From the NCBI GenBank assembly GCA_018658715.1, contig JABHUQ010000104.1, positions 1 to 55,772 on the forward strand: a stretch of 55,772 nucleotides of DNA, given 5' to 3'. Numbering within the stretch: the first letter of the stretch is position 1; the number at the start of each line of letters is the position of its first letter. Positions 31,595 through 36,548 of this stretch are shown one piece after another. The translations under genes and the position numbers were made by a program. The notes under the pieces are model-generated. The model was not told the origin of the DNA. It ran no database searches and worked only from the letters and a program-made list of their open reading frames with translations. Source of the stretch: Fidelibacterota bacterium (lineage in GTDB: Bacteria > Fidelibacterota > Marinisomatia > Marinisomatales > UBA1611).

Positions 31595-32329
31595 ATGATG
31601 GTTGAACATCATATAATTCCACCATTCACCTCAACTTGGTGGATAGGACTCATTGTGAGCGCACTAGTCATTTGGGGCATAATTCAATATGGCAAGAGCC
31701 AAAGCCCTAAAAAAGAAGCTCAATTTTCATTTATTTTAGGTATTGTTTTAATTCTAAGGGAAATAGTGAGAGAAATATATCTTTATTCAATTAATACATG
31801 GCACATTACAGATAGCCTCCCATTACATTTATGTGGGATTTCATCCATAATTGCTGGACTTATTTTAATTTATCGCAATCAATTTTGGTTAGAGTTTATT
31901 CTTATTTTAGGTATTCCCGGAGCAGTGCATAGTTTTTTAACTCCAGAACTTACACATGGACATGATGCTTATTTACTCTTTGAATATTATTTTAGTCATT
32001 CGGGTATTATTCTTTCAGGTTTCTATCTTGTTTTTGTTCACAGAATGTCGCCACGTCTAGGTTCTTGGAAAAATGCTTTTTGGGTTGCGCAAGGATTACT
32101 CATTTTTATCGGTTTAATGAATCTAATATTAAAATCAAATTATATGTATTTATCAAAAAAGCCACTTGTCTCAAATCCATTAATTATTGGTGAATGGCCA
32201 TTTTATTTACTGGGATTTGAAATTGCAGGTCTTGTACATATTCTTCTTTTTTATAGTTTTTTTATTTGGGTGGTGAAAAAGAATCCTGCAAAAGTCACCA
32301 TAAATAAAAACGGTCAATCAAAAATATGA
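31595..32329 (+). CDS. YwaF/TIGR02206-type integral membrane protein
   Basis: 244 aa with about six or seven hydrophobic helices. The arrangement LPLHLCGISSIIAGLILIY, then GIPGAVHSFLTPEL and HGHDAYLLFEYYFSHSGIIL is typical of the YwaF family (TIGR02206), whose biochemical role is unknown. Two adjacent ATG codons (31595, 31598) are possible starts. The end overlaps the next gene by 4 bases. Confidence 0.85.
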   Translation: MMVEHHIIPPFTSTWWIGLIVSALVIWGIIQYGKSQSPKKEAQFSFILGIVLILREIVREIYLYSINTWHITDSLPLHLCGISSIIAGLILIYRNQFWLEFILILGIPGAVHSFLTPELTHGHDAYLLFEYYFSHSGIILSGFYLVFVHRMSPRLGSWKNAFWVAQGLLIFIGLMNLILKSNYMYLSKKPLVSNPLIIGEWPFYLLGFEIAGLVHILLFYSFFIWVVKKNPAKVTINKNGQSKI

Positions 32330-32937
32330 AAAAATATTTTTTTGTATTTATACTTAATTCATTATTAGTACAATTCCTTTCTGGGCAAATATTAGAAATT
32401 GTTTTAAAGTCTGGCGATGTTATTGCATCTAGAAACAAATATACAATCGATAATAAAAGCCTTATTTTCTGGAAAGATAGTTTAGCCGTTCTGGCCATAC
32501 CAGTCATGACAATTGATGGTGTATATTATTCTACAAAAACTTATAAAGCGTTAGGTGTTCCGTTTCAAGTAATGGGTGGATTTATTGCTGGATCTTCTAT
32601 GGCGGCATCTGTAGTAGGGCATAGTGAATATTTATCTTATGGATTGCCTACCGGACTTTTATTATACGCAGCAGGACGTAGGCTCAATTATTGGGGAAGA
32701 GATCATGGAAAAGATGCCATATTTTATGATTTTCATGAGCTAGGATTCTTGAACCGACTTGTAATCTTTGAAAGTATTCAACTCGATATTAATCGAAAAA
32801 ATAGTCAAAATGATCGAGGCTATTTTAAAGTTGGTCCCGAGGGAGAAACACCTCCAAGTATATTTAAATGGGATGGACGAAAAATTTGGAAAAAATGGTT
32901 TAAGAGAAAGAAAAGGAAGTGGGTGGAGTTCGGTTAA
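32326..32937 (+). CDS. Hypothetical exported protein
   Basis: 203 aa. A signal peptide (KKYFFVFILNSLLVQFLSGQ) is followed by a domain opening EIVLKSGDVIASRNKYTIDNKSLIFW. This reads like a small beta-rich unit seen in FCB-group exported proteins that handle a surface-associated or stress role, but I cannot name it. A hydrophobic Gly/Ala/Ser stretch lies near residues 85-105, and the C terminus is strongly basic (KKWFKRKKRKW). It overlaps both neighbours. Confidence 0.65.
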   Translation: MKKYFFVFILNSLLVQFLSGQILEIVLKSGDVIASRNKYTIDNKSLIFWKDSLAVLAIPVMTIDGVYYSTKTYKALGVPFQVMGGFIAGSSMAASVVGHSEYLSYGLPTGLLLYAAGRRLNYWGRDHGKDAIFYDFHELGFLNRLVIFESIQLDINRKNSQNDRGYFKVGPEGETPPSIFKWDGRKIWKKWFKRKKRKWVEFG

Positions 32938-33506
32938 TATTAACGGCATTAAAAGCAGAATCTGCTCCTATCATCCAGCATTTTAATTTAAATAAAATTT
33001 CTGCATCCTTTCCGTTATATAATAGAGAAAATATTTATTTGGCTGGCACTGGTATGGGAGAAAAAGGCGTTTCCCAATCTATGCCAAAAATAATTTCCTT
33101 TTTTAAAGATAAACCAATTGATCATATTATAAATGTTGGTATATCAGGTGGTAGTCCAAGGGAAACGCAAATTGGTCAATTATATCAAGCTAGATCAATT
33201 TCAAAAGAAGGAGTAGCGTCATCTTTTTTGCTTAATAAATTTCACGAAAACATTATTGAATTACCTTTAATAACCGTTAACCGTGAAATAAAAAAATGGA
33301 CAGAAGAATTTCCTGATATTGTAGATATGGAAGCATTTCACATTATTAAGCATATAAGAGAGATGTATCCTCTTGAGAAAATGACAATTATAAAAGTCGT
33401 TTCTGACTATATGGATATCAATAAAAGAGTGGTCACAAAACAGGATGTTAGTATTTTTATCCAAAAACAAATGAATATGATAGAAACCGTTATCTTGAAC
33501 GGGTAA
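32919..33506 (+). CDS. MTA/SAH nucleosidase-like (nucleoside phosphorylase superfamily) protein
   Basis: 195 aa. The superfamily signposts are present in order: LTALKAES at the start, INVGISGG near residue 70, VDMEAF (catalytic Glu position) near 138, and KVVSDYMD (catalytic Asp position) near 163. It is shorter than typical MTA/SAH nucleosidases (about 230 aa) because the middle is trimmed. A futalosine-hydrolase-like or other purine-nucleosidase role is equally possible. The start is GTG 32919, inside the previous gene by 19 bases. Confidence 0.75.
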   Translation: MGGVRLILTALKAESAPIIQHFNLNKISASFPLYNRENIYLAGTGMGEKGVSQSMPKIISFFKDKPIDHIINVGISGGSPRETQIGQLYQARSISKEGVASSFLLNKFHENIIELPLITVNREIKKWTEEFPDIVDMEAFHIIKHIREMYPLEKMTIIKVVSDYMDINKRVVTKQDVSIFIQKQMNMIETVILNG

Positions 33507-33518
33507 ATTCAACCCACT

Positions 33519-33620
33519 ATGAAAACAATTATCTTTTCCCTAATCGTACTATTTGTTGTTGGCTCATTAGTGCTTGCTTTTATTTATAGACTTCAAGCGC
33601 CAGATGATCCTGATGCTTAG
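33519..33620 (+). CDS. Very small single-helix membrane protein upstream of the selenoprotein
   Basis: 33 codons. A single strong transmembrane helix (TIIFSLIVLFVVGSLVLAFIY) has a short acidic tail (QAPDDPDA). It lies 12 bases after the nucleosidase-like gene and 6 bases before the start of the candidate selenoprotein. The selenoprotein's Shine-Dalgarno (AGGAAG) overlaps its stop codon. Clean membrane topology and tight spacing support it; length alone would not. Confidence 0.55.
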   Translation: MKTIIFSLIVLFVVGSLVLAFIYRLQAPDDPDA

Positions 33621-33626
33621 GAAGTA

Positions 33627-35153
33627 ATGCCGCAAATAGGAATATATTTATTTCTATTATTGACCCCAATTATTGTGGGTCAACCTGGATTTAGTTTAGA
33701 AGATTTAAATCCAAATTCATTTACCTACGGCCAAATGATTGGACCTTCTAATTATGAAGGAGATATTACCATTCTTTTTTTTGGTCATGAAACATGAGGC
33801 ACTTGTCGAAACCGGTTTGGTTTTCTTAACAAAATACATACAGATTTAAAAATATTAAATGTAACGGATGTTCATATTCTTGGTATAGGCAAAGATGCAT
33901 ATAACGCATCATTAAACCAAATGATCTCTGGTGCGCATTTACCTTGGTTGGAAGATTCGAGTGCCACAGGATACCCAGTTTGGTCTTCCTGGAACGCAGA
34001 GCAAAGATCTATTTTTATACTGAATCGTGATGGGACTCAGGACACAACATTTAATATTACACCTTATACTGAAGATGATCCGGAAGATTATTTGTATTTA
34101 ATGCATTTAATTTTAAACTACCGAAATACCGGGGGAAATCAAACGATTCGGATTCCGCAAGATTATCCTGAAATACAAACAGGTATTGAAATTAGTCAGG
34201 ATGGAGATTTAATTTTAGTCGATTCGGGTACATATTTTGAGCATTTAAATTTAATGGGAAAACAAATTACTTTAGCTTCATTATCGTTCCATCGTATGGA
34301 TAATAATTACTTAGATGATACAGTTATTGATGGACAAGGTATAGATAGAGTTATTACTATTGAAAATGGAGAAAATACTTTAACCAAGATTATTGGATTA
34401 TCCATAATAAATGGTAATGATGACACTGGAGCAGGAATATTAATTAATAATGGTTCTAATCCGGTTATTGAAAAAAATAAAATTATCAATAATAATAGTT
34501 TCGGTTGTGGTGCTGTTGGTGGTGGAGTAGCAATTATAAATCATTCAAATCCAAGAGTAATTGGAAATATCATTGAGAATAATACCGCAGGAGGCTCATG
34601 TGATTGTATCTGCTATTTTGGAGGTGGAATATTTGTTGATTCTACATCGTTCCCAATTATTGGAGGTGAAAACGGGTTAGGAAATTCATTATTTTCGAAT
34701 AGTAGTGATTACGGCTACCATCTTTTTAGGCAATTGCCCATGGATACAACTGATATTGTACCGATAAATGCTAGGTTTAATACTTTTGATCATTGCCCTC
34801 CAGAATTTATTGGTGATGTTTACCCAGAGTTTGGATGGGATGTGTCAAACTGTTTACCGCAATTATCCATTGAACAAGAATTTGTAGCAGATTCTTATAC
34901 ACTATTTTCTGCTTATCCAAATCCATTTAATGGACATGTAACTTTATCATTTTCAATAGAGAAGGATGAAATCATCCAAATGAAAGTATATGATTTATCA
35001 GGCAAATTAGTAGATAAAATATTGAATGAAAAAAAGGAAAAGGGGGATTATACCATTACATGGGACGCAAATAATTATGCAAGCGGTGTATATATTGTTC
35101 AGCTAAATTTTGGTGATGCACAAGTATCTCAAAAAATACTTCTCCTTAAATAA
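33627..35153 (+). CDS. Candidate secreted selenoprotein: UxxC thioredoxin-like domain, beta-helix, type IX sorting domain
   Basis: 508 aa if TGA 33795-33797 is read as selenocysteine (Sec57). Upstream of it lie AGGAAG (33619-33624), ATG 33627 and a signal peptide (YLFLLLTPIIVGQ), all in frame. The strand DITILFFGHET leads into U57-G-T-C60, a UxxC redox motif at the usual thioredoxin-fold place. It is followed by a helix and strand (LKILNVTDVHILGIGKD), then HLPWLED..PVWSSW and IFILNRDGT. By eye this resembles the SelP N-terminal domain. Residues about 175-395 form a right-handed parallel beta-helix with NNGSNPVIEKN- and NHSNPRVIGNII-type rungs. Residues about 425-508 are a Por/type IX sorting domain (YPNPFNGHVTLSF...KVYDLSGKLV...GVYIVQL). 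A SECIS-like hairpin follows the TGA. The alternative is a TGT-to-TGA nonsense mutation. Confidence 0.8.
33798..33830 (+). promoter_or_regulatory. Candidate bacterial SECIS element
   Basis: GAAACC (33808-33813) pairs with GGTTTT (33819-33824, last pair G-U) around a 5-base loop GGTTT (33814-33818). Lower pairs TTG/TAA-type (33803-33805 with 33827-33829) extend the stem past a 2x2 mismatch. The apical loop begins with G and sits 16 bases after the TGA. These are the features described for bacterial SECIS hairpins: a short stem, a 3-14-base loop with a G in its first two positions, and 16-37 bases from the UGA. The structure was drawn by hand, with no energy calculation. Confidence 0.6.
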
Positions 35154-35904
35154 GGCTCTTATTTGTATTGCTATTTTAAATGCAGAACCATCCTTGCAAG
35201 GAGAAACTTCTTCCAAGGTAGAAACCATGATTAAAGAAATTGATTGGGCGGGGATATCGTTCAAAATGATTCAATCTGGGGAATCTGACCACAGATTAAT
35301 TTGGTTACACGGTGATGAGAAAACCGCAAAAATGGCATTGGAAGATTATGTGAAGCACTATTCTGGGATAGCTTTTTTTATTCAATCTTCAGATAGAGAA
35401 ATTCCGTTCATAGATACTATAGTAGATCCAAACCGTATTTTTTCAACGGAGGGCTCAAGTAAAGCTCTTCAAAAATTCAAATCAAATTGGAATCAAACTC
35501 AACTCAATGAAGCAATATCATTACTTGAAAAGGGACGGAAAACTTTTTTAAATGAAATATTTCCAACGAATGGAGGTCTCTTAATTGCTCTTCATAATAA
35601 TTCTCGTGGATATAATATACATTCAGAAACTCAGAACAGTACATCCGTTTCAATTAAGAAAGACCAAAACCCACGAGATTTTATCATTTGCACAGAAGAA
35701 GTAGATTTTTTAAAACTAGAACATGGCCCCTATAATGTAGTTCTTCAAAATAAGAATCTTGGATATGATGATGGTTCTTTATCCTGGGCATCTTTAGAAA
35801 ATGGGGTTCGTTATATTAATATAGAAGTACGCCTAGGGTGGTTATCCAAACAAAAAAAAATGTTAAACTATATTCATTATACATTAATACATGCGAATAA
35901 TTAA
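35116..35904 (+). CDS. Exported protein with M14/AstE-like metallohydrolase motifs
   Basis: About 262 aa from ATG 35116 (an in-frame ATG/GTG at 35110 is possible), inside the 3' end of the selenoprotein gene. An N-terminal hydrophobic stretch (LNKALICIAILNAEP) suggests export. The body carries LIWLHGDEKTA (HxxE, a possible zinc pair), then VDPNRIFSTEG and LLIALHNNSRGY (a possible third zinc His). Their order resembles the carboxypeptidase M14/succinylglutamate-desuccinylase superfamily. I recall similar DPNR..F / ALHNN proteins of unknown function in the Bacteroidetes. The enzymatic role is inferred. Confidence 0.6.
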   Translation: MHKYLKKYFSLNKALICIAILNAEPSLQGETSSKVETMIKEIDWAGISFKMIQSGESDHRLIWLHGDEKTAKMALEDYVKHYSGIAFFIQSSDREIPFIDTIVDPNRIFSTEGSSKALQKFKSNWNQTQLNEAISLLEKGRKTFLNEIFPTNGGLLIALHNNSRGYNIHSETQNSTSVSIKKDQNPRDFIICTEEVDFLKLEHGPYNVVLQNKNLGYDDGSLSWASLENGVRYINIEVRLGWLSKQKKMLNYIHYTLIHANN

Positions 35905-36181
35905 TTCATTTATACAAAAGGCTATTAAGTTGATGCCAGTCATATTATTATTTATGATAGCAACCATAGATAGAAATAACTCATTATATGTCGCCTTTTT
36001 TCTAATTATTTTATTTGGTTATTCCACCATATTAATTGCTAGAGTTCTTGAATCAAAAAAGAAATGGTATCAAGAAAATAGTGATTTAGCAGATTTAGGA
36101 ATTGATGAATCAATTGACACAATGGGTGACATAACAAAAAAAATAGAAAAAAAATTAAATGGAGGAAATAATGAAAAATGA
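35891..36181 (+). CDS. Small two-helix membrane protein
   Basis: 96 aa. Two hydrophobic segments (LMPVILLFMIATI and SLYVAFFLIILFGYSTILIA) are followed by a charged cytoplasmic-looking tail rich in Asp, Lys and Glu. No family recognised. It overlaps the preceding gene by 14 bases and the following one by 11, so it belongs to the same operon as the candidate selenoprotein. Confidence 0.65.
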   Translation: MRIINSFIQKAIKLMPVILLFMIATIDRNNSLYVAFFLIILFGYSTILIARVLESKKKWYQENSDLADLGIDESIDTMGDITKKIEKKLNGGNNEK

Positions 36182-36548
36182 AATTGATCAAAAAAGTTTT
36201 ATAATTGGAGTATTGTCGGCAACTTTATTTTTTGTAGTTGTTGGGGCAGATGAAATACCTAAAGAAGTAACTGAAAATCCGTTAATTGAAAGAAACTTAG
36301 GGGATATAGTTGTTAATTCAATTACAGTATTAGATGATGGGCATGGTGGATATATTTCAACGTATAACCAAGATGGGAATCGGACGGTTTATATTGGGAC
36401 AGGTGAAAATAGAAATGGATATATTAGTACATTTAATAAAATGGATGAGGCTACAACCTATCTGGGGACTAACAAAGAATTAGATGGTGTAGTAGTTTTA
36501 AAAGATCGTTATGGCGATTTAGGGTGGAGCCAAACAGGAAAACAATAA
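36171..36548 (+). CDS. Membrane-anchored protein with short beta repeats
   Basis: 125 aa. GGAGG (36161-36165) sets the start at ATG 36171 rather than the upstream in-frame ATG 36159. One N-terminal anchor or signal (SFIIGVLSATLFFVVVGADE) precedes an external part containing imperfect repeats: GGYISTYNQDGNRTVYIGTG, NGYISTFNKMDEATTYLGTN and DGVVVLKDRYGDLGWSQTG. Such YIxxY/TxxxGT units suggest a small beta-sheet stack exposed in the periplasm or at the surface. Function unknown. Confidence 0.7.
   Translation: MKNEIDQKSFIIGVLSATLFFVVVGADEIPKEVTENPLIERNLGDIVVNSITVLDDGHGGYISTYNQDGNRTVYIGTGENRNGYISTFNKMDEATTYLGTNKELDGVVVLKDRYGDLGWSQTGKQ

Follow-up and report, generated by a model that had tools for sequence, protein, structure and literature searches.

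A predicted secreted selenoprotein that joins a thioredoxin-fold domain to a type IX sorting domain in a Marinimicrobia genome

Introduction

Does an in-frame TGA in a long reading frame of a Marinimicrobia genome end the protein, or is it read as selenocysteine (Sec)? The question is raised by contig JABHUQ010000104.1 of assembly GCA_018658715.1, whose 55,772 nucleotides, the whole stretch of DNA that was analysed, are called the window here. An initial annotation of this DNA had proposed a candidate secreted selenoprotein, and had named three findings that would speak against the proposal: a genome without Sec-decoding genes, a sense codon at the site in close homologues, and a sequencing error for TGT or TGC. 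None of the three was found, and the proposal is supported by the conserved TGA, the selenocysteine machinery, a SECIS element, coding constraint and a predicted thioredoxin fold. On the sequence evidence presented below, the UGA is almost certainly read as selenocysteine in a redox active site.

Results

The reading frame and its TGA

When TGA is translated as Sec (U), the frame at 33627 to 35153 of the forward strand gives 508 residues with a single TGA (33795 to 33797, U57) and ends in TAA, as had been described. The residues around U57 are ILFFGHET-U-G-T-C-RNRFGFLN. The gene indeed has its own Shine-Dalgarno sequence, AGGAAG at 33619 to 33624 of the forward strand, which overlaps the stop codon of a preceding conserved ORF of 33 aa, and since an in-frame stop lies closely upstream, ATG 33627 is the sole possible start. 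Past the TGA, 451 codons remain open, for which the chance probability is about 6e-13 at the stop-triplet frequency of the window (0.061). The earlier statement that TGA normally terminates elsewhere in the window also held: it closes 7 of the 45 longer ORFs, and in all seven the frame meets another stop 1 to 16 codons on, so that TGA is no general sense codon there. Comparison of two congeners yielded dN/dS values, which are rough and have synonymous sites near saturation, of 0.12 upstream of the TGA, 0.095 over the 41 codons from the TGA to the first downstream ATG and, past that ATG, 0.055 over the rest of the domain and 0.17 over the remainder (range 0.06-0.17), indicating that coding constraint continues straight across the TGA.

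Conservation among relatives and gene neighbourhood

Query residues 24-166 matched in 26 of the 33 genomes of the taxonomic family, and all 28 readable loci of that family carry TGA at the same place, within the motif forms UGTC, UGAC, UGVC, USTC, UNAC, UGLC and UGMC. The TGA was likewise present in all 18 additional loci that the domain model retrieved and in each of the 20 GTDB contig loci from Ca. Neomarinimicrobiota, the three sets of 28, 18 and 20 overlapping in part. Across the phylum, the NF053656 domain model matched 80 of 245 genomes (47 above cut-off). Where such a match had E < 1e-8 and covered the site, one or two TGA were always present. In the contig scan, which used a profile from the alignment of closer relatives, the relatives in named records all belong to Candidatus Neomarinimicrobiota (Marinimicrobia, SAR406) and the rest to the same phylum set. 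Since the same TGA stands in many independent assemblies, a sequencing error for TGT or TGC is excluded, and every readable close homologue has TGA in place of a sense codon. No cysteine form of the family was seen among the readable family, phylum and GTDB contig loci. Stop-free weak domain matches were considered as cysteine homologues and rejected, those that were read being CxxC proteins of the ResA/TlpA type; ResA/TlpA proteins are the nearest proteins with cysteine. A scan of viral contigs for the family gave no match.

Five loci from other genomes of the phylum (L108, L109, L110, L117 and L118) encode paralogues of the domain with two in-frame TGA (UGGU, UAGU or UNGU). Some of these two-TGA paralogues continue into repeats resembling dockerin type I (PF00404 in L109, E 3e-6).

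The gene order is conserved in many relatives: a futalosine-hydrolase-like gene (window 32919-33506), the 33-aa ORF with a single membrane span (33519-33620), the selenoprotein gene, and two further families with no Pfam match (35110-35904 and 36159-36548). Upstream of the cluster, a TMEM164-family protein (PF14808, E 2e-41) is encoded at 31595-32329.

Selenocysteine machinery of the genome

The assembly (2.46 Mb, 96% complete) was searched for the selA, selB, selC and selD genes that the initial annotation had listed for checking, and all were present. The selA (520 bits) and selB (336 bits) genes adjoin on one contig (C99), and a single gene for tRNA-Sec (60.7 bits, anticodon TCA) was identified. 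Two contigs carry the latter; they overlap exactly by 141 nt and the gene lies within the overlap, so a count of two tRNA-Sec genes was rejected. The selD gene (398 bits) is interrupted by TGA in its classical GSGUACK motif, and selD is itself a predicted selenoprotein, the second Sec gene of the same genome. It lies at about 1480-2430 of locus L018 (G000:C85), and it would be cut short by gene callers that stop at TGA.

Among the 245 phylum genomes, selA was above cut-off in 58 of the 67 with a strong domain match vs 117 of the 178 others (Fisher p = 0.001, without correction for relatedness). The nine domain-bearing genomes without a full selA match are mostly incomplete, and one genome of the same genus (G016, 92% complete) has selA and no copy of the selenoprotein gene. 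A family of small genomes in the same order (f9, G068-G091, about 0.4-1.0 Mb) has neither selA above cut-off nor the domain, which suggests loss of the Sec trait.

A SECIS element downstream of the TGA

A hairpin at 33807 to 33825 of the forward strand, starting 9 nt past the UGA, has a 7-bp stem with compensatory changes and the apical loop GGUUU at 33814-33818. In a gap-free alignment of 27 sequences from the TGA onwards, the 7-bp stem is common to all and the GGUU(C/U) loop is invariant, so that the conserved G of the apical loop is present, as in bacterial SECIS elements. Paired stem cells amounted to 79.4% vs 63.7 +/- 2.1% in shuffled alignments, changes on both sides of the stem numbered 28 vs 9.8 +/- 2.4, and the covariation score was 0.470 vs 0.208 +/- 0.030, with 0 of 500 shuffles as high; helices slid to other registers scored much lower. 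The arginine codon in the loop is CGG or AGG in 28/28 loci vs 19.5% of arginine codons elsewhere in the genes, a restriction that the loop forces on the codon. More distant family members have the same hairpin. As a single sequence its energy is unremarkable (-5.8 kcal/mol, z = 0.40, no more stable than shuffles), and the case for a SECIS element therefore rests on covariation. The stem GAAACC/GGUUUUC can be drawn both with and without a bulged U in its upper part. From this sequence pattern, we read the predicted hairpin as a bacterial SECIS element.

A covariance model of the family element was run on the own genome, where only the gene at 33627-35153 was credible; two further weak matches were rejected, as they fall in short frames. 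Because the model recovered only this gene, the other selenoproteins of the genome, including selD, would have SECIS elements that are differently shaped or below detection.

The thioredoxin-fold domain

The region at 33684 to 34118 of the forward strand matched the NCBIfam model NF053656 (redoxin_TUGYCR), "TUGYCR motif thioredoxin fold (seleno)protein", with 147.8 bits against a cut-off of 100 (residues 20-164, E = 2e-43, model positions 2-145 of 146). AlphaFold modelling of the domain with 29 sequences returned a confident thioredoxin fold (pLDDT 93, pTM 0.89), in which the Sec site follows a core strand (28-33) and stands at the N-end of a helix (39-57); in this model, Sec occupies the nucleophile position of the fold. 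The best PDB match of the domain was ResA (E 9.5e-11, TM 0.72), and a profile search aligned UGTC on the CEPC of ResA, in agreement with the earlier placement of the TGA at the first cysteine of a thioredoxin-like CxxC.

Export signals and the C-terminal regions

A putative signal peptide of about 20 aa, judged by eye from a hydrophobic stretch, is encoded at 33627 to 33686 of the forward strand. The signal peptide proposed by the initial annotation has a hydrophobic stretch, which is followed by ...VGQ, and lacks the usual Lys/Arg; more distant orthologues do have basic N-terminal residues (MKMKRTKYF...). Behind the redox domain, residues 173-390 (34143 to 34796, forward strand) form a passenger resembling a right-handed beta-helix by Pfam Beta_helix (E 2e-4), alignment and model, with invariant cysteines C294, C325, C327, C329 and C390, and C409 just after it. 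Confidence of the full-length model was moderate (pLDDT 71). At the C-terminus, residues 430-505 (34914 to 35141, forward strand) match the type A sorting domain of the type IX secretion system with both TIGR04183 (E 1.1e-12) and Por_Secre_tail (E 1.2e-13), and the whole-genome scan recovered the domain again, so the secretion-sorting domain noted earlier is confirmed. The same genome encodes a SprA homologue (574 bits) and has 82 sorting-domain matches. Several family members of 180-240 aa have no room for a beta-helix and a sorting domain.

Discussion

The Sec codon, its machinery, the SECIS element, the fold, the sorting domain and the SprA homologue are well supported. SelB bound to the predicted hairpin would deliver Sec-tRNA(Sec), and the ribosome would insert Sec57 at the first, nucleophilic position of UGTC in the ResA/TlpA-like thioredoxin domain, where it may form a selenenylsulfide with Cys60. 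For the later steps we infer export, a surface location, a substrate and a direction of the reaction: the signal peptide would take the protein out of the cytoplasm by the general secretion pathway, and the type IX system would recognise the sorting domain, carry the protein across the outer membrane and probably anchor it at the surface. Once outside, the selenothiol/thiol pair could act as a thiol-disulfide oxidoreductase or as a peroxide-reducing centre; its substrate may be the protein's own Cys-rich beta-helix, or other surface disulfides or peroxides. For this explanation as a whole, from Sec57 insertion through SelB and SECIS to type IX surface delivery and a redox role, we estimate a probability of roughly 0.93. 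It also seems likely that Marinimicrobia display a selenothiol centre on the surface by type IX secretion, in cis with a Cys-rich beta-helix, within a Sec-only family that has UxxC, UxxU and dockerin branches.

If the TGA were a true stop, or had arisen as a pseudogenising mutation, there would be a short N-terminal peptide and a separate ORF from ATG 33921, and it is indeed as 33921-35153 that the ORF list gives the downstream part, in a window where TGA normally terminates. Yet the TGA is invariant across the phylum loci and the 41 codons between it and ATG 33921 are under strong purifying selection (dN/dS 0.095), while termination would halve the thioredoxin fold and leave a downstream protein with a sorting domain and no signal peptide. 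We regard this reading as very improbable and rejected it in both its forms, along with a change of the genetic code. Some bacteria show readthrough without Sec, and the UGA might in the same way be recoded as tryptophan, glycine or a near-cognate residue; against this stand the full Sec machinery with a canonical SelD selenoprotein in the same genome, the covarying hairpin and the alignment of the position to the catalytic cysteine of ResA, so that insertion of another residue is hardly credible.

The location of the protein is a separate matter. A Sec protein that is periplasmic or released, with the beta-helix and sorting part as a structural accessory, would suit the members too short to hold these regions. 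Against it stand the type A sorting domain, clear both in this protein and in its orthologues, and the presence in the genome of SprA and some 80 further sorting-domain matches, and a location away from the surface is unlikely. If surface export is true, the gene would couple the use of selenium to type IX secretion and suggest that selenium is spent on redox chemistry outside the cell; our literature search turned up no such coupling (the one paper mentioning both is an unrelated rabbit-feeding study). Gene callers for which TGA always means stop cut such genes short or divide them, with the consequence that a putatively extracellular selenium-dependent redox family is hidden in a widespread uncultured ocean lineage.

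The redox domain is not a new family, since NCBI already lists it as a (seleno)protein; 29/29 aligned relatives match NF053656, which has the Sec motif at the same position. The motif here is TUGTCR, not TUGYCR, and the model covers the domain only, without beta-helix and type IX sorting domain. A literature search found no occurrence of 'TUGYCR', and the family does not appear in the available part of the table of a 2026 review (PMC13188914). The 2008 GOS survey (Zhang and Gladyshev, PMC2398784) describes a marine group, 'Prx-like 2', with UxxC, several UxxU, weak SelP_N similarity, fusions and no strong homologues in the genomes of that time. The relatives here are alike in being marine and in having UxxC and UxxU members (UGGU/UAGU/UNGU), dockerin-like C-termini and a weak SelP_N match (PF04592, in 9 of 29), and differ in that 100 cysteine homologues are listed there vs none seen here. 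Compared by these described features only, the two are probably the same group. ResA/TlpA thiol-disulfide oxidoreductases are the best fold and PDB sequence match, with CxxC aligned on UGTC, but identity is only about 22%, Sec replaces the first cysteine, and the column of the ResA cis-proline holds a conserved arginine, so that CxxC with a cis-Pro loop is not found. The gene is thus a well-supported addition to a known domain family, and its architecture, a Sec-thioredoxin domain with a Cys-rich beta-helix and a type IX sorting domain, is apparently undescribed. With type A cargo of the type IX system (TIGR04183) it shares the C-terminal sorting domain, a putative signal peptide and SprA in the genome, and it differs from such cargo in being predicted to contain Sec.
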